Shown piece after piece: positions 4,256-18,404 of a DNA stretch of 59,236 nucleotides (positions are counted from its first letter, which is position 1; every line of letters starts with the position of its first letter). The translations under genes were made by a program, and so were the position numbers. The DNA is from an uncultured Methanosarcinales archaeon. GTDB lineage: Archaea > Halobacteriota > Methanosarcinia > Methanotrichales > Methanotrichaceae. The stretch lies in NCBI GenBank assembly GCA_903871465.1, contig CAIQHB010000079.1:1-59236 (forward strand). The letters run 5' to 3'. The notes below the pieces were generated by a model that worked only from the letters and a program-made list of their open reading frames with translations, had not been told where the DNA came from and did no database searches.

Positions 4256-7200
4256 TCATCCCCAGTGGCCTGCAACAGGCAGATCTCCAGTTGTTCCTAG
4301 CGTTACTGTCTTGTCGACTACACCATCTAGATTATTATCTAGATAGAACATATGGTTCGAGTCTCTGTATACCCCAACTCCTGCTTTGCCATCTCCATCC
4401 CAGTCACCTATGACTGGTTTGTCTCCCGTTATTCCTAGCGTCACTGTCTTGTCTGCGATTCCATCCAGGTTGTTGTCCAGGTAGAACCTATGGATCGAAT
4501 TCCTCCAAACACCTACACCAGCTTTGCCGTCTCCGTCCCAGTCACCTGAGATGGGAGTATCACCCGTAGCTCCCAGCTGTAGAGTTATATCGGCTATTCC
4601 ATCCAGATTGTTATCCAGGTAGAACCTTTGATTCGAATTCCTCCAAACACCTACACCAGCTTTGCCGTCTCCGTCCCAGTCACCTGAGGTGGGTGTATCG
4701 CCCGTAGCTCCTAGCTGTAGAGTTTTATCCGCTATTCCATCTAGATTGTTATCCAGGTAGAACCTTTGATTCGAATTCCTCCAAACGCCTACACCAGCCT
4801 TTTTATCTCCATCCCAATCGGCTGAGATGGGTTTGTCGCCAGTAGCTCCGAATACAACAGTTATGTCGACGATTCCGTCCAGGTTGTTGTCCAGGTAGAA
4901 TCTTTGGTTCGAATTCCTCCAAACGCCTACACCATCCGCTATTGCGGCTGTTTTTACCACGTTGGATGCAACAGAGTCGGCTGACATAGTTGGGAAGCCG
5001 ATAGATGGGGCCGCATATACTACAGTGTCACCGACCACGTTATTGGCTATGATCCGGTAGTAGTATGTTGTTCCCTTTACAACACTGTTGTCCGTGTAAG
5101 TCTTCACGTTCGGTCCAACTTTGAATGTCGTCAGGCCCGCTGTGAAACTGGCATTCGTAGCTCTCTGGATGGTGAATCCAGTTTCGCTGATTGAGTTGTC
5201 TTTCCATGTTAGGTTAACTGAATTGCCATTATTCGTTGCCGTGAGGTTAGATGGCGCTTCCGGTGCAACCGCAAACGCTTGCGCGTGCATCATGTCCATC
5301 TCTTCATGGCCCAGTAGGTGGCAGTGCAATACATACTCCCATCCGAAATTGACCAGGTGGTTGGTTACTGTGACACCGTTACCCGCCGGATCGAAGAATC
5401 CTCCCAGCGGCGGTCCTCTTAAGATCGCGCCTGCAGGCATCGTCGGGTCAATCAATCGGGTGCTGTTGGGAACCTTGAAGGGCAGCTTGGGAGCAACCGG
5501 CCTTAAAGCCACAATGGTTTGCTCCAGCGGGTCTACCCTGACAGTTTCCTTCCAGCCGAGTTCGTCCGCGTCTGGCGGCACCATGACTCCGTCCCAGCCG
5601 ACACGGTTGACAAGCTGCACATTGTACAGGTGGAAGTGATAGGTATGAGAGTCCACACCGTTGTGCACTATCTTCCATAGCTGGGTACCGTCACCTGCGG
5701 CCGGCGGAGCCAGTGGAACCATGGAATCCTTTATGACCTCTACCGGCGGGCTGGCGTAGCCAAGCAGCATGAAGTTCTGGGTAAGAGTCGTGGCATTTGG
5801 CACTTCAAGTCCCAGCATGCTGCTCATTCTTCCGTAATCCTGCTCGTATGCTGCGCCCATCTCATCATGGATGGCCTTTGGTTCCAGCTTGATGGTCAAA
5901 CTGGCGCCGGTGATGTTTTGGAATGTATGGGTTTGTTGGTAGAGCTGTACATACTCCTTGCTGATATTTGCCGTGAATGTCTTGTTGTAGGCAGAGTTGT
6001 ATGCGGCCTGCGGCACGATGATCGTTGGCTGTGAAACCTCGAATACACCTCTCTTCGTCCCAGGACCCTTGGCAAACACTCGGGTCAAGTTGGTCAGATT
6101 GTAGGTACTGGCGATCGGTGTTGATTTCACATTGATCTGCATGATCGTTCTGGTGTTGGGGCCGTATCCGGGCTGAGTCGTTGGTGCTCCGCCTATGTCT
6201 GTCTGATCCGAGTCGCCGGTGTAATAGTCCCAGCGCGGATCGTAGTTCGGGAACGCTGCGGGAGCGTCGTTGTAGAGTATGAGTGTCTTGTTAGCGTATG
6301 CCGAGAAGTCGATTATGACGTCTGCCCTCTCAGCCGGTCCAAGTTCGAGTGCGTGTTTATCGACTATTCCGAACATGAACATCAAGAAGTCCCTGATCCA
6401 GGTGACAGGCTGGTTTTGTACCACCACAGGTGCCGGCAGGAAGCCTCCTTCAGTTCCGATCCGGATGAACGACGGTCCCATGAAAGCTGGGTCCGGCACT
6501 CCGCCATCTCTTCCGTCTGTCGGCCAGCCTGAGGGGAAACCAGATGTTGCAACCGCCGGGACCATGCCGACCTCTGTATTGCTCTTATAGACTCTAGCTA
6601 CAGCCGTAGCTTTTGTGGTATTGGTTCCTATGATAGTGACAACCGGTGCTGTATAGTTGCTTCCTACCGTCAGGACATTGATGCCTGTGACGACACCATT
6701 TACCACGGTCGCAGCAGCAGTAGCGCCCCTTCCGTAACGATCGGTTATGGTTACGCTGGGGTTGGTATAGCCGGCGCCTCCTGCTGTAACATTGATGTTT
6801 CTGATGATTGGTGTTGACTGATACAGCTGGAGGTTGAAGTAGCGTTCACCAGCAGCATTCAGGATGAGGAACCTGTAAGCCTTCGGCTCCAAAGTCAGAT
6901 TGGGGTAGATGGCTCCATTGACGACAGGTGTGTCCAGGAATGCTTCCATGGCCATCGATGGGTTAGGAGTCGCTGGCATGACTGGTGGCTCCCAGGGTGC
7001 TGCTGTGCCTGGACCTCCTGTATAATAGGGGTTGGCGATAGGCCCGTGAACCAGATCTCCCGCAGGCGGCCAGAACCATGGTGCATAATCCCATCTTCCA
7101 AAGGTATTTGCTCCGCTCAGGTCATAGGGGTTCTGGTTCGGCATGAAGACATGGGGTATCCATAGGTCTCCTGTCATTGCTTTTGTTATCTTTCCGGCGA

Positions 7201-9106
7201 CTCTCGGTCCTGTTCCCCAGTTCCAGGTAGGATCCTGTCCATTTATTGTGGTGTTGTCAATGAATGCCTTGTCCTGGATGACCAGAGGGATCAATGAATC
7301 CGGGAGAACCTTCAATAGGCCTGGGTTTGCCCCTGTGACGTTGGTGCCGCTCATCAAATCCAGTTCTACCTGATCTATCAGAAGGTAGGGCGCGGCCGCT
7401 CCTGCATAGACGTTCAGACGGGTGATGCCGTAGGCATGGTCATGGTAGAACATCAGTCTGGCGCTCTGATTGTTGGTGTAGTAGAACGTCATAGTGCCTT
7501 GCGGCTCAATCCCGTTATCCATGTCCGGGACGGATCTCACGCTGACTCCCTTTGGATAGGCTGTGTGCTCTCCGGCAGGAGTGATCCACTGGTGAGGTGT
7601 TCCGTCGCTGATCCACACAGTGTCGCCGCCATGCAGATGAATTGTTGCGCGGTTCTCGGTGTAGTTCATGTCCGTTCCGGGAGGAACAGCCATACCCAGA
7701 GGACCCATTCCGGCACCCATAACGGTTTTATCCACAGGTATGAAGAGGTTGCCGTTGACGCCCGTGGGTAGATAGTCATGGAACTTCACGCGAACGGGTG
7801 TGCCTTTAATAGCGACGATTATTGGTCCCAGGTAGTGGGGATTATCGTAGGCGTACACATGCACCGGCGTGCCACTCGTTCTGTTCATAATAGCCGTGCC
7901 GTTGGGATACCTCATGAAGACGTTCTTCCCGCCCGGAACTCCGAAGGCCTTCTGGATCTGCACATATCCGCGCAGAGTCGTATTGGGGAGATCCCTATGC
8001 ATCTTCTCTGAGTACTGCACGACTGCTATCTCGTAGTAATCGTAACCTGGATACGTCGTCTTATCTGCAATGGCTGCAGGAATGTACTGACCAAGGTCGT
8101 TTTTCTCTCCTTGCACCACGCTGGGGAGTGAATCGACGAATTTCCTGATTCCACCATTGAAGACGCCACCTATTGTTGCTTTGGCGTCAGCGCCAGTGGC
8201 AAAAGTGTTCGAATCATTGATGGTGACAACAGGGGCGGTATATCCCGCGCCTCCGCTCGTGAGCGTGATTTTGGTGATGACACCAGATACCACTGTTGCT
8301 GTGGCAACAGCTCTCGTCACACCCGTAATGTTGTAGGCATCCGTAATTGTGACCGTTGGAATAGTATAACCGCTGCCTCCGCTGAGAAGTGTAACATTGG
8401 CTATACTGCCCTTGGGCATCGGGCTATAAGCCCAGTTGGCGTATGGTCCGAAATAGTGGGGTATGCCGCCTGGATTGAACAATGGTGCAGCAGCAGTTGT
8501 CACATTCGCGATCCCCACTGCTGGGGCCTGAGCAGCCGCGCGTGCCATAGCTTCATTGTAATTCGCTTTGAAATTCTTTGCAGCGGCCTTTCTCATAGCA
8601 GTAGTCGTGAGATTCTTCAAGACGTCGCTGTACTGAATAACGGGCAAAACACCTGCATTCAGAGACAGGCCTTCAGGCATGACGGCGGCGGTGCTGTCCG
8701 GTGTCTGGACTTCAGATACGATAGCTGCGCTGCTGTCCTGATTCTGGTTGTCCGCGCTGACGGCGGCGCTGTCTAATGCATTGGGGGAAACGTTATCAAC
8801 CGCATTTCCAGGGCTTGCAGGATTATCAGATACGCTGACGCCGTTGCCGTCTAATGCATTAGGGGAAGTGTTATCAATACCATTTCCAGGGCTGGCAGGA
8901 TTGTCAAATACGCTGACGACTCCACTGTCCAATGCATCCGGGGAAGTATTATCAATAGCATTTCCCAAACCGGCAATACAACCACACAATGTCAATAGCA
9001 GAAGAAGCATACCGGCAGCATGCATTAATCCGGCAGATCCGAATCCGAAACATGCTGCATTCGTTGCTCTTTTTTTCAATCTTGGTGAGACATTCTTAAT
9101 TTTCAT
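4256..9106 (-). CDS. Giant secreted multicopper oxidase with FN3 and Asp-rich repeats
   Basis: A 1616-residue exported protein. The N-terminus has a basic region, a hydrophobic segment (~residues 31-41) and a lipobox-like LCGC, so it may be a lipoprotein. All four copper motifs are present: HLHGG near residue 489, HDH near 554, HTYHFH near 1152 and HCHLLGHEEMDMM near 1258. These supply the type 1, 2 and 3 copper ligands, including the type 1 Cys and a likely axial Met, so the enzyme should be active. Four G-G-x-G-Y-type repeats (LLSGGSGYTIPTVTI and similar) lie in two pairs within the oxidase part. A fibronectin III domain (~1280-1365) and five 46-residue repeats follow. The sequence around the first two motifs resembles large bacterial oxidases of the MofA (Mn-oxidase-like) or bilirubin-oxidase type. 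Such enzymes reduce O2, which is striking in a strict anaerobe. The substrate is unknown. Confidence 0.9.
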   Translation of the reverse strand: MKIKNVSPRLKKRATNAACFGFGSAGLMHAAGMLLLLLTLCGCIAGLGNAIDNTSPDALDSGVVSVFDNPASPGNGIDNTSPNALDGNGVSVSDNPASPGNAVDNVSPNALDSAAVSADNQNQDSSAAIVSEVQTPDSTAAVMPEGLSLNAGVLPVIQYSDVLKNLTTTAMRKAAAKNFKANYNEAMARAAAQAPAVGIANVTTAAAPLFNPGGIPHYFGPYANWAYSPMPKGSIANVTLLSGGSGYTIPTVTITDAYNITGVTRAVATATVVSGVITKITLTSGGAGYTAPVVTINDSNTFATGADAKATIGGVFNGGIRKFVDSLPSVVQGEKNDLGQYIPAAIADKTTYPGYDYYEIAVVQYSEKMHRDLPNTTLRGYVQIQKAFGVPGGKNVFMRYPNGTAIMNRTSGTPVHVYAYDNPHYLGPIIVAIKGTPVRVKFHDYLPTGVNGNLFIPVDKTVMGAGMGPLGMAVPPGTDMNYTENRATIHLHGGDTVWISDGTPHQWITPAGEHTAYPKGVSVRSVPDMDNGIEPQGTMTFYYTNNQSARLMFYHDHAYGITRLNVYAGAAAPYLLIDQVELDLMSGTNVTGANPGLLKVLPDSLIPLVIQDKAFIDNTTINGQDPTWNWGTGPRVAGKITKAMTGDLWIPHVFMPNQNPYDLSGANTFGRWDYAPWFWPPAGDLVHGPIANPYYTGGPGTAAPWEPPVMPATPNPSMAMEAFLDTPVVNGAIYPNLTLEPKAYRFLILNAAGERYFNLQLYQSTPIIRNINVTAGGAGYTNPSVTITDRYGRGATAAATVVNGVVTGINVLTVGSNYTAPVVTIIGTNTTKATAVARVYKSNTEVGMVPAVATSGFPSGWPTDGRDGGVPDPAFMGPSFIRIGTEGGFLPAPVVVQNQPVTWIRDFLMFMFGIVDKHALELGPAERADVIIDFSAYANKTLILYNDAPAAFPNYDPRWDYYTGDSDQTDIGGAPTTQPGYGPNTRTIMQINVKSTPIASTYNLTNLTRVFAKGPGTKRGVFEVSQPTIIVPQAAYNSAYNKTFTANISKEYVQLYQQTHTFQNITGASLTIKLEPKAIHDEMGAAYEQDYGRMSSMLGLEVPNATTLTQNFMLLGYASPPVEVIKDSMVPLAPPAAGDGTQLWKIVHNGVDSHTYHFHLYNVQLVNRVGWDGVMVPPDADELGWKETVRVDPLEQTIVALRPVAPKLPFKVPNSTRLIDPTMPAGAILRGPPLGGFFDPAGNGVTVTNHLVNFGWEYVLHCHLLGHEEMDMMHAQAFAVAPEAPSNLTATNNGNSVNLTWKDNSISETGFTIQRATNASFTAGLTTFKVGPNVKTYTDNSVVKGTTYYYRIIANNVVGDTVVYAAPSIGFPTMSADSVASNVVKTAAIADGVGVWRNSNQRFYLDNNLDGIVDITVVFGATGDKPISADWDGDKKAGVGVWRNSNQRFYLDNNLDGIADKTLQLGATGDTPTSGDWDGDGKAGVGVWRNSNQRFYLDNNLDGIADITLQLGATGDTPISGDWDGDGKAGVGVWRNSIHRFYLDNNLDGIADKTVTLGITGDKPVIGDWDGDGKAGVGVYRDSNHMFYLDNNLDGVVDKTVTLGTTGDLPVAGHWG
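4259..4945 (-). repeat. Five tandem 138-bp (46-residue) repeats in the oxidase C-terminus
   Basis: The 3' end of the oxidase gene contains five units with a strict 138-base period; the CC-rich marker of each unit lies at about 4323, 4461, 4599, 4737 and 4875. Each unit encodes GVGVWRNSN, then FYLDNNLDGIAD, then GDWDGDGKA. The D-x-D-G-D-G and D-N-N-L-D-G loops look like calcium-binding loops of FG-GAP/VCBS-type repeats. The near identity of the inner units at DNA level indicates recent unit duplication. Confidence 0.85.
8732..8965 (-). repeat. Three tandem 78-bp (26-residue) repeats after the signal peptide
   Basis: Directly after the export signal the oxidase has two full and one diverged copy of a 26-residue unit built around GNAIDNTSPDALD and VSVxDNPASP. 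The units are Asp-, Asn-, Ser- and Pro-rich and probably form an extended linker that holds the enzyme away from the membrane. That role is inferred from composition only. Confidence 0.75.
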
Positions 9107-12074: not shown

Positions 12075-13175
12075 TTAGACCAATCCTCTGTAGACCTTCT
12101 CAATATCCTCAGCTACCCTTCTCCAGCTATACCTTTCCTCAACGAGCCTTCGCCCTGAGGTCCCCATCTTCTTGGCAAGATTCTCGTTTTCCAGAATACA
12201 GAGCATCGCCTCAGCCAGCTCAGCTTCATTTCCCCGGCTCACCATGAGACCTGCTTCACTCTTCTTTATCTCTTCAGCCATGCCTGCGATTTCCGTGGTG
12301 ACTACAGGTTTTCCGCAGGCCATGGCTTCGAGTGGCACAATCCCGAATCCCTCTCGGGTTGGATCTGTGGAAGGAAGCACGAATAGCTTGCAGCCGTTAT
12401 AGTAATCCTGGAGTCGTTTCGTAGGTATGAAGCCTGTGAACCTCACATTCTCATCGAGTCCCAGGGATTCCGTCAGGCTGCGGTAATAATCAACCAGGCT
12501 TCCACTGCCCCCCACCACCAGCCTAACATTAGGCATCTCTTGTTTCAATATCTTCAGGGCCCTTAAAAGATGCTCCAATCCTTTGTACCTGTGATACTCG
12601 TCCAAGACGCTCAGGAAGAATATGTCCCCTTGCCGCGGGCTCTCCCGCGGCTGGAAGGCTGCGACATCAATCCCCAAGGGTATAATGGAGATCTTTTCCA
12701 TGCAACCTTCAAGAAGAGGCGACATATAGTTGCCCCTGGTCACAATAATCCTGTCTGCGGACTTTAGCAGCAACTTCAAGGCAGTTTTATTATACAGACA
12801 TGCCACATAATTCGCAGCGCCCTCTCCAACGATGTCGTTATGATATGTCAGAACGAGGGGCCTCTTCTTTAGCCGAGATGCTAGAGCGCTCCAGTCGGCG
12901 CTCCAGGGTGTTGGAAGATGGGTATGCAAAATATCAAAGTCTTCTTTCAGAAAAGCTAGGGGCAGGGCGGGCGTAATGTTTGTATTTGCCACCTTCCCTA
13001 CAGTTCTTAAAACCTTAGTATTGATGCGTCCATTGACCTCATTATCTCGTGGGGTGTCGGCGCAGATTACGCTGACCTCATGGCCCATGCTCAGGAGCTC
13101 ATTGGAAAGGTTCCTAACATAGCTCTCTACTCCGCCCGTCGCGAAGAGCCGAGCTGGGGTCTGAAGTATCCTCAT
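12075..13175 (-). CDS. Glycosyltransferase, GT4 family
   Basis: A 366-residue GT-B enzyme. The start shows the usual GGVESYVRNLSNEL acceptor-side helix, SVLDEYHRYKGLEHLLRAL opens the donor domain, and DPTREGFGIVPLEAMACG is the EX7E motif. It would act at the cytoplasmic face on a polyprenyl-linked glycan. It is the first gene of the operon GT4-GT2-permease-ATPase; the genes are separated by single bases. The promoter probably lies in the 87-bp element at 13195-13281, which places an AT-rich TATA-like site about 53 bases before the ATG. The sugar specificity cannot be told from sequence. Confidence 0.88.
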   Translation of the reverse strand: MRILQTPARLFATGGVESYVRNLSNELLSMGHEVSVICADTPRDNEVNGRINTKVLRTVGKVANTNITPALPLAFLKEDFDILHTHLPTPWSADWSALASRLKKRPLVLTYHNDIVGEGAANYVACLYNKTALKLLLKSADRIIVTRGNYMSPLLEGCMEKISIIPLGIDVAAFQPRESPRQGDIFFLSVLDEYHRYKGLEHLLRALKILKQEMPNVRLVVGGSGSLVDYYRSLTESLGLDENVRFTGFIPTKRLQDYYNGCKLFVLPSTDPTREGFGIVPLEAMACGKPVVTTEIAGMAEEIKKSEAGLMVSRGNEAELAEAMLCILENENLAKKMGTSGRRLVEERYSWRRVAEDIEKVYRGLV

Positions 13176-13194
13176 ATTTTCTGCCTTACGCGAT

Positions 13195-13281
13195 TCGTAT
13201 CATCATCTCCCTGGCATCGTGATCGTATTTAATAGAGTATTGTCTTATTCGGCCTGAGCAATAAGATCAAGGTGCCAAGAT
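13195..13281. repeat. 87-bp promoter element, copy 1
   Basis: This stretch matches 14051-14137 at 78 of 87 positions, in the same orientation. It includes the TATA-like TATTTAAT (13228-13235), an inverted repeat and the AAGGTGCCAAG leader that precedes the rfbD start in copy 2. Here the ATG has become ATA and no plus-strand gene follows. It lies 20 bases upstream of the minus-strand glycosyltransferase operon. The two copies flank the methyltransferase gene. Confidence 0.9.
13243..13266. promoter_or_regulatory. Inverted repeat TCTTATT-N10-AATAAGA (candidate operator)
   Basis: A perfect 7-bp inverted repeat with a 10-base spacer inside copy 1 of the 87-bp element. In copy 2 both arms have changed together (TCCTATT and AATAGGA), so the symmetry is kept. 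This points to a dimeric repressor site or, less likely, an RNA hairpin. Confidence 0.6.
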
Positions 13282-13306
13282 AGTACCTGTCCCTTACGAT
13301 ATCTGA

Positions 13307-14005
13307 TTATTTTTTGACTTTGCGGGCTTTCATAGTAAGATAAACCGAATGAATTTTATCAAATTTGGAGATAAAAGCAGCCATTGGACCAGGGAACGGA
13401 TAGTACCCCACCCCAATCATCCGCTCCACTGTAAACCCATGGTACTTGAAAAGCTCCTTGAGGGCCTCTGGTGTGAAGATTCTCAGATGAACTTCTCCCT
13501 TGCTCGCGTGCCGCATTCCGCATTTGGGGTCAAGAGAGTTTCCCAGGATCACCTCGTTGCTCACATGGGCAGTGAACGGCTGTTTCCCTAAAACTAGAGA
13601 AAAAATATTGTGGAAACTGGCCAGGTTGGGTGTGGAGATAACAGCATATCCGCCAGGCTTTAGTATCCTGTGAACCTCTTTGACGAATTGGTCCGTTTCT
13701 GGCAGGTGCTCCAGAACCTGATTGGCGTGCACGACGTCGAAGCTCTCATTCTCAAAAGGGAGATTCTCGTTCAAATCTGCAAAGGAAACTTTGATTCCTC
13801 TGGCCTTGGCTCGCAGGCAAGCCTCCTCCAGAAACTCTGCACCATAGATATCTTCCGTTTCTGCCTTTTCTGCTATTTTCAGGGCAAACTCGCCATCTGC
13901 GCACCCTAGATCGATTATTTTTGCCTTCGCGTCCACCTCAATTAAGTCTAGTATGCTCTTGCGGTTCTCATGGTCTACATTGTGGTATAAAGAAAGCAGA
14001 TTCAT
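13307..14005 (-). CDS. Class I SAM-dependent methyltransferase (glycan-locus type)
   Basis: A 232-residue methyltransferase of the UbiE/Methyltransf_11 type. KIIDLGCADGEFA near residue 35 is motif I, IYGAEFLEEA is motif II, FDVVHANQVLEHLPE is the motif IV region, and RILKPGGYAVISTPN is motif VI. Such enzymes in polysaccharide loci methylate sugars or lipid-linked intermediates, but small molecules are equally possible. It is read away from rfbD and toward the glycosyltransferase operon. It lies between two 87-bp direct repeats, so recombination between them would remove it cleanly. Its own promoter would be the minus-strand side of copy 2. Confidence 0.82.
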   Translation of the reverse strand: MNLLSLYHNVDHENRKSILDLIEVDAKAKIIDLGCADGEFALKIAEKAETEDIYGAEFLEEACLRAKARGIKVSFADLNENLPFENESFDVVHANQVLEHLPETDQFVKEVHRILKPGGYAVISTPNLASFHNIFSLVLGKQPFTAHVSNEVILGNSLDPKCGMRHASKGEVHLRIFTPEALKELFKYHGFTVERMIGVGYYPFPGPMAAFISKFDKIHSVYLTMKARKVKK

Positions 14006-14050
14006 GGCTTTAGCACACTTCTCCCCAGACTCTCTCGGCTATCTCGCATA

Positions 14051-14137
14051 TCGTATCAGCATCTCTCTGGCATGGTGATAGTATTTAATGGAGTATTGTC
14101 CTATTCTGCCTGAGCAATAGGACCAAGGTGCCAAGAT
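14051..14137. repeat. 87-bp promoter element, copy 2
   Basis: Copy 2 of the element at 13195-13281, about 90 percent identical. It lies between two divergent genes and ends in the rfbD start codon (ATG at 14136). It therefore carries the promoter of the rhamnose operon and probably also that of the methyltransferase gene on the other strand. Confidence 0.9.
14082..14122 (+). promoter_or_regulatory. rfbDACB promoter with overlapping inverted repeat
   Basis: TATTTAAT at 14082-14089 is a good archaeal TATA candidate 47 bases before the rfbD start. The expected transcription start, about 25 bases downstream, falls within the inverted repeat TCCTATT-N10-AATAGGA (14099-14122). A repressor bound there would block initiation. 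Confidence 0.55.
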
Positions 14138-15002
14138 GACTGAGCTGCTTGTTATAGGCGGGGGCCTTCTGGGGCGGGCCGTGGCGAAGGCTTCCAGAGA
14201 AAGCTTCAGGACTGCCTTGACCTACAACTCTCATCCACTGCAGATGGAAGGTTGTGCGACCTATCCGATGGATATAACAGGAAGAGTTGATCTTATCCGA
14301 AGCCTGAAGCCAGAGTACATAGTCCTGACCGCAGCCATGACCAACGTAGATGGTTGCGAAGAGGATCGCCAAGGTGCCTGGAAAGCCAACGCCCTGGGGC
14401 CTAAAAATGTTGCATCGGCGGCTAAGGATTTAGGCTCAAAGCTGATCTATGTCTCCACCGATTATGTCTTTGATGGCGAGCGTGGCATGTACAGAGAGGA
14501 CGACCAAACCTCGCCCATCAACTACTATGGCGAGAGCAAGCTTGCAGCGGAGGGGTTCGTTCGAGAAATCTGCCAGGATTCTTTGATCGCCAGGACCTCC
14601 GTTCTCTATGGCTGGAATCCTGCAAAGCAGAACTTCGTCACATGGGCCATGGAAGAAATGAAGAAGGGAAACCGGATTAATATCGTAAATGACCAATTCA
14701 CTTCACCAACCCTTTCCTCAAATCTGGCAGACATGATCCTTGCTATCAAGGACCAGACGGGTGTGTTTCACACTTGCGGCTCGGAGAGAATCAACCGCTA
14801 TGACTTTTCCATCAAGATTGCCAAAGCTTTCTGCCTCGACGAATCTCTAATAAACCCCATCACCTCAAACCATTTGAGCTGGAAGGCGAGGCGTCCCATG
14901 GATTCTTCCCTGGATACCTCGAAGGTCTCCCGGTTCACAAAACCTTTAAATGTAGAAGAAGGGCTGAATGCCATGATAATGCAAGGAATGGTGGCAGAAT
15001 GA
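14136..15002 (+). CDS. rfbD: dTDP-4-dehydrorhamnose reductase
   Basis: Last enzyme of dTDP-L-rhamnose synthesis: it reduces dTDP-4-dehydro-L-rhamnose with NAD(P)H in the cytoplasm. The 288-residue protein shows the extended-SDR pattern: LVIGGGLLGRAV for the cofactor, the YVSTDYVFDG strand that defines RfbD proteins, the YxxxK pair in INYYGESKLAAE, and RTSVLYGW. The ATG at 14136 has AGGTG six bases upstream. It is the first gene of rfbDACB, and its stop overlaps the rfbA start (ATGA). The operator-like repeat at 14099-14122 probably governs the operon. Confidence 0.93.
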   Translation: MTELLVIGGGLLGRAVAKASRESFRTALTYNSHPLQMEGCATYPMDITGRVDLIRSLKPEYIVLTAAMTNVDGCEEDRQGAWKANALGPKNVASAAKDLGSKLIYVSTDYVFDGERGMYREDDQTSPINYYGESKLAAEGFVREICQDSLIARTSVLYGWNPAKQNFVTWAMEEMKKGNRINIVNDQFTSPTLSSNLADMILAIKDQTGVFHTCGSERINRYDFSIKIAKAFCLDESLINPITSNHLSWKARRPMDSSLDTSKVSRFTKPLNVEEGLNAMIMQGMVAE

Positions 15003-16060
15003 AGGGTTTAGTGTTGTCGGGAGGCTATGGAACAAGGCTTCGCCCTCTGACATATTCTCAACAAAAGCAGCTCATACCGGTGGCTAATAAGCCCATCCTC
15101 TTTTATGCCATAGAAGATATTATTGCCGCCAACGTGCACGATATTGGCATAATCGTCGGACCCAATCGAGATCAAGTGGAGAAGACGGTCCAGAGCAGAG
15201 ATTGGGATGCCAATATCGAGTTCATTTACCAGGATGCACCTCGGGGCCTGGCTCACACAGTGCTAATTTCTGAAAAGTTCTTGGATGGCGAGCCTTTTGT
15301 CATGTATCTGGGCGACAACCTCCTTTGCGACGGCATAGTCGATCATGCCAACCGCTTCAGAAGCTCGGGAGCTGACGCATCGATTCTGCTCACCGAGGTC
15401 AGCAATCCGGAAAGGTTCGGCGTAGCTGAGCTGAATGAGTGCGGTGAAGTCGTCCGGCTTGTGGAAAAACCTAAAGTTCCGCCATCCAACCTGGCCCTCG
15501 TGGGGGTCTATCTCTTCAAGCCAATCATATTCGATGCTGTGAAGAATATCAATCCTTCCTGGAGAAACGAGCTGGAGATAACTGATGCTATTCAGTGGCT
15601 GGTAGAGAATGGTTATCATGTTCAGGCATCTGTCGTGAAAGGCTGGTGGAAGGATACCGGTATGCCTGAGGATATATTGAGCGCAAACAATCTCATACTG
15701 GACGAGATTGAAGCATCATGCTCCGGAGCTGTCATGGATGAATCCGTGGTCCAGGGACGAGTTGAGATAGGGCAAGGGACAATTTTGGAAAATGGATCTG
15801 TGATCCGCGGACCGGCCATCATAGGCCGGGAATGCAAGATATCAAACTCCTACATCGGCCCCTATACGAGCATAGGAGATGGCTGCGAGATCCTTGACTC
15901 CGAGATTGAAGGCTCCATAGTAATGGACGGAACAAGGATCGACTTGAGGCGCAAGATTGTTGATAGCCTGATAGGCGCAAATGTCAGGATTTCTGAGAGC
16001 AGTAAGAAACCCCATGGATATCGATTTGTAATCGGCGACAGCTCGGAGGTTAAAGTATGA
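14999..16060 (+). CDS. rfbA: Glucose-1-phosphate thymidylyltransferase, long archaeal form
   Basis: First step of the rhamnose pathway: dTTP plus glucose-1-phosphate gives dTDP-glucose and pyrophosphate. LSGGYGTRLRPLTYSQQKQL is the nucleotidyltransferase signature with its catalytic Arg and Lys, and VEKPKVPPSNLALVGVYLF is the sugar-binding strand. At 353 residues it is longer than bacterial RfbA (~290). The extra C-terminal ~110 residues carry hexapeptide repeats (GAVMDESVVQGRVEIGQGTI) of a left-handed beta-helix, which is usual in archaeal members. The start overlaps the rfbD stop by four bases and the stop overlaps rfbC by four, so translation is coupled. Confidence 0.93.
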   Translation: MKGLVLSGGYGTRLRPLTYSQQKQLIPVANKPILFYAIEDIIAANVHDIGIIVGPNRDQVEKTVQSRDWDANIEFIYQDAPRGLAHTVLISEKFLDGEPFVMYLGDNLLCDGIVDHANRFRSSGADASILLTEVSNPERFGVAELNECGEVVRLVEKPKVPPSNLALVGVYLFKPIIFDAVKNINPSWRNELEITDAIQWLVENGYHVQASVVKGWWKDTGMPEDILSANNLILDEIEASCSGAVMDESVVQGRVEIGQGTILENGSVIRGPAIIGRECKISNSYIGPYTSIGDGCEILDSEIEGSIVMDGTRIDLRRKIVDSLIGANVRISESSKKPHGYRFVIGDSSEVKV

Positions 16061-16524
16061 TCGAGGGTGTGAGAACTAAGAATCTCAAGGTAGTTCCGGA
16101 TGAGCGTGGCTGGCTTATGGAGATCCTGAGAAACGACGACGATGTTTTCCAAAATTTTGGTCAGGTTTACCTGACTACCGCTTATCCTGGTGTGGTGAAG
16201 GCCTGGCACTATCACAAAAAACAGACAGATAATTTCACCTGCATCCGAGGCATGATGAAGGTGGCCCTTTACGATGATCGTGCGGGCTCCTTGACATGCA
16301 GAGAGATCAACGAATTCTTTGTAGGCGACAGAAATCCCCTGCTCATCAGCGTTCCGCCGCTGGTTTACCACGGCTTTAAGGCAGTAGGCGAAAAGACAGC
16401 ATACTTCCTGAGTATCCCGACCCTGGCTTACAACTACAAAGAACCCGATGAGTTCAGGCTGCCCCCAGATACAGACAAGATACCCTACGACTGGCTTCTG
16501 ACTCCGGGAAAAAGGCATGGCTAA
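16057..16524 (+). CDS. rfbC: dTDP-4-dehydrorhamnose 3,5-epimerase
   Basis: Epimerises dTDP-4-dehydro-6-deoxyglucose at C3 and C5 to the L-rhamno form, in the cytoplasm. It is a cupin-fold protein of 155 residues, shorter than the usual ~180. The catalytic histidine is in GVVKAWHYHKKQTDNF, and the following RGMMKVALYDDR strand and PPLVYHGFKAV segment match the family. Position third in rfbDACB supports the assignment. A 3-epimerase or other sugar cupin is the main alternative, because the short form lacks part of the C-terminal region. Confidence 0.87.
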   Translation: MIEGVRTKNLKVVPDERGWLMEILRNDDDVFQNFGQVYLTTAYPGVVKAWHYHKKQTDNFTCIRGMMKVALYDDRAGSLTCREINEFFVGDRNPLLISVPPLVYHGFKAVGEKTAYFLSIPTLAYNYKEPDEFRLPPDTDKIPYDWLLTPGKRHG

Positions 16525-16535
16525 CGGGGGAAAAG

Positions 16536-17483
16536 ATGAGATTGCTGATTACGGGCGGTGCAGGATTCATAGGCTGCAACTTCGTGCGTCATATCCTTGA
16601 GGAGCATTCTGATTACGAGGTCGTCGTGCTGGACAAGCTGACCTACGCCGGCAGGATGGAGAACCTTGAAGAGATTATGGATAATATCACTTTTGTGCGC
16701 GGCGATATCTGCGATAAGAGCGACGTGGATAAAGCCTTGATGAACTGCGATGCGGTGGTGAACTTTGCAGCTGAGACGCATGTGGACAGGTCGATCACCG
16801 AAGCTGGCTCTTTCATCCGGACAAACGTTTTGGGCACTCACACTCTTCTGGAGGCCGCAAGAACCTCTGGTCTGGAGAAGTTCGTGCAGATAGGCACAGA
16901 CGAAGTTTACGGAAGTGCTTCTTCGGGTTCCTTCTCCGAATCAGATCCCCTCAATCCGTCTTCACCCTATTCGGCATCCAAAGCAGGTGCTGATCTTCTG
17001 GCGCGAGCCTACTTCACGACATATAATCTACCTGTCTCTATAACCAGAAGCTCGAACAATTTTGGGCCATATCAATACCCAGAGAAGCTGATTCCCTTCT
17101 TTATCCTTCGGGCCATGATAGGCGAAAAGCTTCCGGTCTACGGATCGGGCGAGAATGTGCGCGATTGGCTCTATGTGCGAGATAATTGTGCGGCCATAGA
17201 TATGGTCTTGCACAAGGGCAAGTCAGGAGAGATCTATAATATTGGCGGCAGCCATGAGCTAACAAACATGGCGATCACAAGGATGATCCTGTCTCATCTG
17301 AAGAAACCGGAGAGCACGATTGAGCACGTTGCCGATCGGCTTGGCCATGACTTTAGGTATTCAGTGGACTCTCGCAAGATTCGTGGCCTCGGGTGGAGGC
17401 CAAAGCGAAGTTTCGAGGATGCTTTGAGAGATACCTTACAATGGTATATGGAGAATGAAGAATGGTGGAGCGGCCTGCTATAG
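16536..17483 (+). CDS. rfbB: dTDP-glucose 4,6-dehydratase
   Basis: Converts dTDP-glucose to dTDP-4-dehydro-6-deoxyglucose with bound NAD+. The 315-residue extended SDR has ITGGAGFIGCNFV for NAD binding, VNFAAETHVDRSI, IGTDEVYGSA with the dehydratase Asp-Glu pair, and SPYSASKAGADLL with the catalytic Tyr-Lys. GGGGAAAAG precedes the ATG at 16536. It closes the rfb operon. Its stop overlaps the stop of the convergent epimerase gene by six bases, so the two transcripts must run into each other. Confidence 0.95.
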   Translation: MRLLITGGAGFIGCNFVRHILEEHSDYEVVVLDKLTYAGRMENLEEIMDNITFVRGDICDKSDVDKALMNCDAVVNFAAETHVDRSITEAGSFIRTNVLGTHTLLEAARTSGLEKFVQIGTDEVYGSASSGSFSESDPLNPSSPYSASKAGADLLARAYFTTYNLPVSITRSSNNFGPYQYPEKLIPFFILRAMIGEKLPVYGSGENVRDWLYVRDNCAAIDMVLHKGKSGEIYNIGGSHELTNMAITRMILSHLKKPESTIEHVADRLGHDFRYSVDSRKIRGLGWRPKRSFEDALRDTLQWYMENEEWWSGLL

Positions 17484-18404
17484 GCCCTTTCCGTTATCCC
17501 TTCGAAAAGAGACTTTTATAATTGCATCGATGCCTTTATCAAAGGGACTCTGGGCCTTGAAGCCAATCTCTCTTTCCGCTTTTGATATATCAGCCAGCGT
17601 GTGCATCACGTAGTTCTTAACAGGATTCTTAGCATATTTCGGTTTCACGGTCAGACCCAGCTTCTGATTCAGAATCTCGATCACATCATCAAAGCTGTAG
17701 GCTTTTCCCGTACCAACGTTCAATATTCCATGATAGTCTGACTCCATAGCGAGTTGCAGGGCCCGCACCACGTCTTTGACATAGGTGAAATCCCTTGTCT
17801 GTGATCCGTCTCCGAATATAACTGGCGTCTTCCCCGCTCTCATCTCCCAGAGGAACTGGGTGACCATGTTCGCATACTCCTTCTTAGCTTCCTCTTTCGG
17901 CCCATAAACGGAGAAGAACCTCATTCCCACCGAGGAGACCTCGAAGAGCCTCTTGTAGAGCTCTGCCATTCTCTCCATGGCCAACCGGGCCTCAGTATAG
18001 TAGTCGGCCACCTGAATGGCCATATCCTCATGATGAGGTGGCATGAGGCCATTGTAAAGGGATGACGAAGAAGCATAGATTACCCTGGCACCAGATCTTC
18101 TGGCCAGTTCATAGACCGCAGTAAAGCCATTGAGAGCTTCTCCTACTAGATAGGGATTCTTCTTGTACATGGGCGAGGATGAGGGTATGCCGAGATGGTA
18201 GATCTTCTCAGGATGAAGATCCATTCCTGGCAGATCGTTGCAGCTTGCATTGATCAGTTCAAAGCTGCCCTTCAAATCCTCCAGGTTGTTGGGGCTTCCT
18301 GTATGCATGTTGTCCAGAATCACAACATCTTCGCCGGCTCTCAATAGCTCCTCTACTAGATTGGAGCCAATAAATCCAGCGCCGCCTGTTACCAGTGTGC
18401 TCAT
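17478..18404 (-). CDS. NAD-dependent sugar epimerase/dehydratase (GalE-like), Lys-to-Arg in the active site
   Basis: An extended SDR of 308 residues that would act on a nucleotide sugar. VTGGAGFIGSNLVEELL binds NAD, YASSSSLYNG carries the catalytic Ser/Thr strand, and RFFSVYGPKEEAK and GDGSQTRDFTYVKDVVRA are the usual substrate-domain motifs. The catalytic YxxxK reads ADYYTEARLAMER: the Tyr is present but the Lys is Arg. Arg could keep the charge and some activity, or the protein may have another role. Upstream the ATG has only a weak binding site. It reads convergently with rfbB and belongs functionally to the polysaccharide locus. Confidence 0.82.
   Translation of the reverse strand: MSTLVTGGAGFIGSNLVEELLRAGEDVVILDNMHTGSPNNLEDLKGSFELINASCNDLPGMDLHPEKIYHLGIPSSSPMYKKNPYLVGEALNGFTAVYELARRSGARVIYASSSSLYNGLMPPHHEDMAIQVADYYTEARLAMERMAELYKRLFEVSSVGMRFFSVYGPKEEAKKEYANMVTQFLWEMRAGKTPVIFGDGSQTRDFTYVKDVVRALQLAMESDYHGILNVGTGKAYSFDDVIEILNQKLGLTVKPKYAKNPVKNYVMHTLADISKAEREIGFKAQSPFDKGIDAIIKVSFRRDNGKGL

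Follow-up and report, generated by a model that had tools for sequence, protein, structure and literature searches.

The window, by which we mean the whole stretch of 59,236 nucleotides that was analysed, contains an archaeal polysaccharide locus with the gene order GT4 (minus strand), repeat copy 1, MT (minus strand), repeat copy 2 and rmlD-rmlA-rmlC-rmlB (plus strand); GT2 and a two-part ABC exporter come after GT4. The features of this locus are given below, the Shine-Dalgarno sequences and TATA-like boxes being predictions from sequence.

12075-13175, minus strand: GT4, a glycosyltransferase (Glycos_transf_1) whose gene opens the GT4-GT2-ABC exporter operon
13181-13188, minus strand: GT4 leader TAAGGCAG, a putative Shine-Dalgarno that recurs unchanged between MT and GT4 in genome G004 (p = 0.018)
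13195-13281, plus strand: copy 1 of the 87-bp repeat, flanked by GT4 and the 3' end of MT
13226-13234, unstranded: symmetric (palindromic) TATA-like box of copy 1, TATTTAATA, called from a score with hand-set weights; putative promoter element
13243-13266, unstranded: inverted repeat of copy 1, TCTTATT-N10-AATAAGA
13269-13274, plus strand: copy 1 relic of the rmlD Shine-Dalgarno; ATA stands after it where copy 2 has ATG, and no reading frame lies behind it
13287-13298, minus strand: CGTAAGGgaCAG, resembling the GT4 leader, on the MT side of copy 1 (p = 0.037, weak)
13307-14005, minus strand: MT, a SAM-dependent methyltransferase (Methyltransf_23/11), flanked by both copies
14051-14137, plus strand: copy 2 of the 87-bp repeat, filling the divergent MT/rmlD intergenic region; predicted promoter
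14082-14090, unstranded: TATA-like box of copy 2, TATTTAATG, called from the same hand-weighted score
14098-14123, unstranded: inverted repeat of copy 2 in its 8-bp form, GTCCTATT-N10-AATAGGAC, with a 7-bp core at 14099-14122; centred on the predicted rmlD start
14125-14130, plus strand: putative rmlD Shine-Dalgarno AAGGTG, 5 nt 5' of the ATG at 14136
14136-17483, plus strand: rmlD-rmlA-rmlC-rmlB, the dTDP-rhamnose genes

The locus resembles Wzm/Wzt-type ABC-exporter polysaccharide loci in that rmlDACB, GT2/GT4, an ABC2 membrane protein and an ABC ATPase stand side by side, but it is archaeal and has a methyltransferase between what appear to be duplicated promoter regions. Beside it, at 4256-9106, lies a 1616-aa open frame whose one match is a weak one to multicopper oxidases and which is possibly a large surface protein. 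An epimerase gene follows beyond rmlB (17478-18404). Its counterpart in G004 (L126 6984-7874) lies directly upstream of the methyltransferase, whereas in the window the whole rmlDACB block, on the opposite strand, separates the two. Elsewhere the same genome (G000:C39, L111 5646-9878) carries another rml cluster, a distant one with rmlA, B, D and C, whose rmlD is 44-46% identical.

The two copies of the repeat are real. As the earlier note had reported, 13195-13281 and 14051-14137 align without gaps and are identical at 78 of 87 positions (90% identity, spacing 856 nt), far beyond chance (blastn E = 1.8e-27). Five of the nine differences are transitions, and copy 2 ends on the A and T of the rmlD ATG. 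We found no further copy of the 87-mer in the 81 contigs (3.13 Mb) of the host genome and no full-length match across the 237 other genomes of the class (238 including the host); its conserved core was not found in viral contigs. G127 holds a 26-bp match, whose E-value of 4e-4 applies to a single genome when 238 were searched; it was taken as chance.

The copies differ in what they can serve. The rmlD leader CAAGGTGCCAAGAT is identical in both, and the next base turns ATG into ATA in copy 1. With its former start codon reading ATA and its plus strand running into the 3' end of MT, copy 1 could serve only the leftward GT4 operon. This useless leader has remained unchanged while the arms of the inverted repeat have changed, so likeness between the copies is no measure of function; judged from the two sequences, their conservation reflects recency as much as function. 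No residual rmlD sequence, which would be a sign of a duplicated and lost rmlD, was detected after copy 1 (p = 0.71). It is possible that CGTAAGGgaCAG on the MT side of copy 1 is a junction scar of an insertion.

On either strand, the best TATA-like sequence in the repeat is TATTTAAT(A/G), which is nearly symmetric. In copy 2 this element (TATTTAAT = 14082-14089) stands between the divergent MT and rmlD genes. No clear B-recognition element was seen at the TATA-like boxes, and a scan for bacterial sigma-70 promoters was uninformative, the host being an archaeon. We predicted the rmlD start from spacings known in methanogens, where the centre of the TATA box lies 27 nt before the start of Methanosarcina acetivorans msvR (PMC3729527) and where a distance of about 19-22 nt between box and start is also given (PMC5378194). 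The predicted start, 14109-14113, coincides with the centre of the inverted repeat at 14110.5, and leftward starts are predicted near 14060 in copy 2 and near 13203 in copy 1. The box and the predicted start together bear out the view that this intergenic repeat carries a promoter whose inverted repeat overlaps the predicted start of rmlD(ACB) transcription. Archaeal TATA boxes that are symmetric can direct transcription on both strands, as with a Pyrococcus furiosus promoter that gave starts 49 bp apart in vitro (PMC6640164). Like that bidirectional promoter of PF1918 (PMC6640164), the window has an intergenic A+T box that is close to a palindrome, with divergent genes flanking copy 2; unlike it, the region is duplicated here, one copy is without its rightward gene, and the starts, mapped for PF1918, are predicted.

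Relatives show two gene arrangements that the window combines. In G031, from another genus of the same family, rmlD and GT4-GT2-ABC are divergent direct neighbours 98 nt apart, without MT, and in G013, G016 and G003, likewise, GT4 diverges from dTDP-sugar genes with no MT present. G004, from the same genus, has the order epimerase-MT-GT4-GT2-ABC, with an MT-GT4 gap of 24 nt, a methyltransferase 77% identical to that of the window, and neither the repeat nor an upstream rml cluster. The rmlD/GT4 divergence and the MT-GT4 adjacency, each found separately in relatives, are both present in the window. Copy 1 and its flank leave a gap of 106 nt to GT4, close to the 98 nt of G031. Parts of the rml or exporter gene sets are kept in G017 and G002. 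The intergenic DNA of G031 gave no significant alignment to the repeat (p = 0.17 for copy 2 and p = 0.34 for copy 1), and those of G013, G016, G003 and G004 gave no DNA match. A search of the named genomes with RmlD returned distant homologues only (<=45% identity).

Within each copy, the 7-bp inverted repeat TCYTATT-N10-AATARGA is present as claimed, and the exchange between copies is indeed paired: T/C at 13245/14101 lies opposite A/G at 13264/14120 in the stem. The pattern TCNTATT-N10-AATANGA occurs in the window at these two sites only, 13243-13266 and 14099-14122 (expected 0.01). A third stem difference, T/C at 13267/14123, had been missed; with it the symmetric arms of copy 2 reach 8 bp, the eighth pair in copy 1 being G opposite T. 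The 8-pair stem therefore holds three of the nine differences, all of which preserve RNA-type pairing (G-U to G-C, U-A to C-G). Given the repeat, nine random substitutions preserve the symmetry in 20% of cases, and preserve it with a paired change at P = 0.007-0.012. When the 87-mer is shuffled and any 7-bp inverted repeat is allowed, the joint probability is P = 0.001, and counting RNA pairs (three stem hits, all eight pairs kept, one two-sided change) gives P = 0.003-0.005. These values favour something beyond independent point mutation, without singling out selection. Template switching between the arms of an inverted repeat is known to yield paired changes without selection, often with extension of the stem (PMC8794818). 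In an unpolarised comparison of the two copies, the bases at 14120 and at 14123 each agree with the complement of GTCCTATT. The paired arm changes and the lengthening of the stem from 7 to 8 bp in copy 2 resemble quasipalindrome or template-switch mutations (PMC8794818, PMC7202029). A template switch could account for the paired change without selection.

The earlier note had taken the symmetry as selected, and as implying an operator (or an RNA hairpin) that might coordinate rhamnose synthesis with export. That a dimeric transcription factor binds TCYTATT-N10-AATARGA as a functional operator is, in our judgement, a tentative reading with the balance against it. The symmetry is perfect over 7 bp in both copies, and the probability of about 0.01 that it would be kept with a paired change under neutrality leaves room for selection. 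The position of the repeat over the predicted rmlD start also has a precedent in methanogens, where the inverted repeat used by MsvR overlaps both the start and the BRE/TATA of two divergent promoters (PMC3729527). On such a reading, a factor at the copy 2 site would cover the rmlD start and repress rmlDACB, and from the leftward promoter's side the same site is about 50 bp upstream of the start, a position from which an activator could act; this would explain the retention of the site in copy 1. Combining these roles in one dimer site, which represses over the rmlDACB start, activates MT and the GT4-export genes at -50, was duplicated so that MT and the exporter each keep a copy, and has its symmetry held by a compensatory exchange, makes for a proposal that we regard as improbable. 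The site resembles the MsvR-type operator TTCGTA-N4-TACGAA (PMC3729527) in being an inverted repeat near the start and TATA of divergent methanogen genes, but it has other arms, a 7+10+7 spacing, no known binding protein and no occurrence at multiple genes in the genome. The analysis did not support the step from selection on the symmetry to such a coordinating operator. The paired change is a single event, which cannot yet prove a regulatory site, and such a change in duplicated promoters is a weak proof of an operator. With 3 differences in 24 positions, against 6 in 63 elsewhere, the inverted repeat evolves no slower than its surroundings. Nor did a regulon emerge: a genome-wide search gave nine one-mismatch matches against seven for the reversed control, which is background, and the only symmetric exact matches were copies 1 and 2. 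The one other exact match, on contig C44, is asymmetric and lies upstream of an unrelated gene. Neither the second rml cluster on C39 nor any of the relatives examined (including G031, G013, G016, G003 and G004) has the inverted repeat, and in G031 the syntenic intergenic region lacks any 7-bp inverted repeat of this kind. We found no regulator among the neighbouring genes scanned, and a literature search on archaeal rhamnose or rmlD promoter repeats listed no paper that clearly dealt with one. A real operator would point the way to a regulator that controls surface-polysaccharide genes in methanogens.

A hairpin in the rmlD leader RNA, offered in the earlier note as the alternative to an operator, could gate translation through an 8-pair stem just 5' of the Shine-Dalgarno sequence. 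The conserved RNA pairing of the three stem differences fits this idea, a 32-mer from copy 2 has a folding energy of -10.6 kcal/mol (z -3.4), and stem-loops masking ribosome sites have been predicted in a related methanogen (PMC5378194). However, the fold does not hold in context (z -0.34 over 56 nt, where copy 1 prefers another fold), and the only TATA-like box places the predicted start inside the loop, so that the 5' arm would not be transcribed. Selection on RNA in copy 1 is unlikely because no gene lies behind it, and no Rfam family matched there, the RNA family scan giving two tRNAs only. We therefore consider a hairpin very unlikely. More improbable still is a mobile or dispersed (MITE-like) element or a transposon target-site duplication. 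Direct copies do flank a gene, but the genome, class and viral searches described above returned no other copy, there is no transposase and there are no terminal inverted repeats, and the boundary of the repeat is the rmlD start codon.

The explanation we consider probable, on the strength of sequence and gene order, is a duplication of a bidirectional promoter, linked to the placement of MT between rmlD and GT4. The 87-bp repeat would be the divergent promoter region of the polysaccharide locus, and MT would have come between rmlD and GT4 along with a second copy of it; the duplicated copies are probably a by-product of this gene insertion. In copy 2, one nearly symmetric TATA box would drive rmlDACB rightward and MT leftward. 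Copy 1 would have kept a leftward role only, driving GT4-GT2-ABC, and its rightward half (start region, Shine-Dalgarno and former ATG) would be a relic. The paired difference between the arms may reflect chance plus, or instead, correction of the arms by template switching. The repeat and its positions, the relic ATG and Shine-Dalgarno, the gene orders of the relatives and the lack of further copies are direct observations, from which we infer the activity and direction of the promoter, its start sites and the order of insertion and duplication. Read this way, the locus would illustrate in a small space how a divergent archaeal locus can take in a new gene with the downstream operon still linked to its promoter.

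Two further observations concern the relatives. At the rmlD start of G031 (L108 1100-1120) there is no in-frame ATG, and translation would have to begin at CTG or a later TTG, possibly owing to a sequence error. The GT4/dTDP-sugar intergenic regions upstream of GT4 in G013 (L130), G016 (L128) and G003 (L131) resemble one another on visual inspection. In all three a short inverted repeat, unrelated to the repeat of the window, encloses a TATA-like box; in G013 it reads AGCAGG-ATTATTTATAAA-CCTGCT, and G003 has a shorter form.
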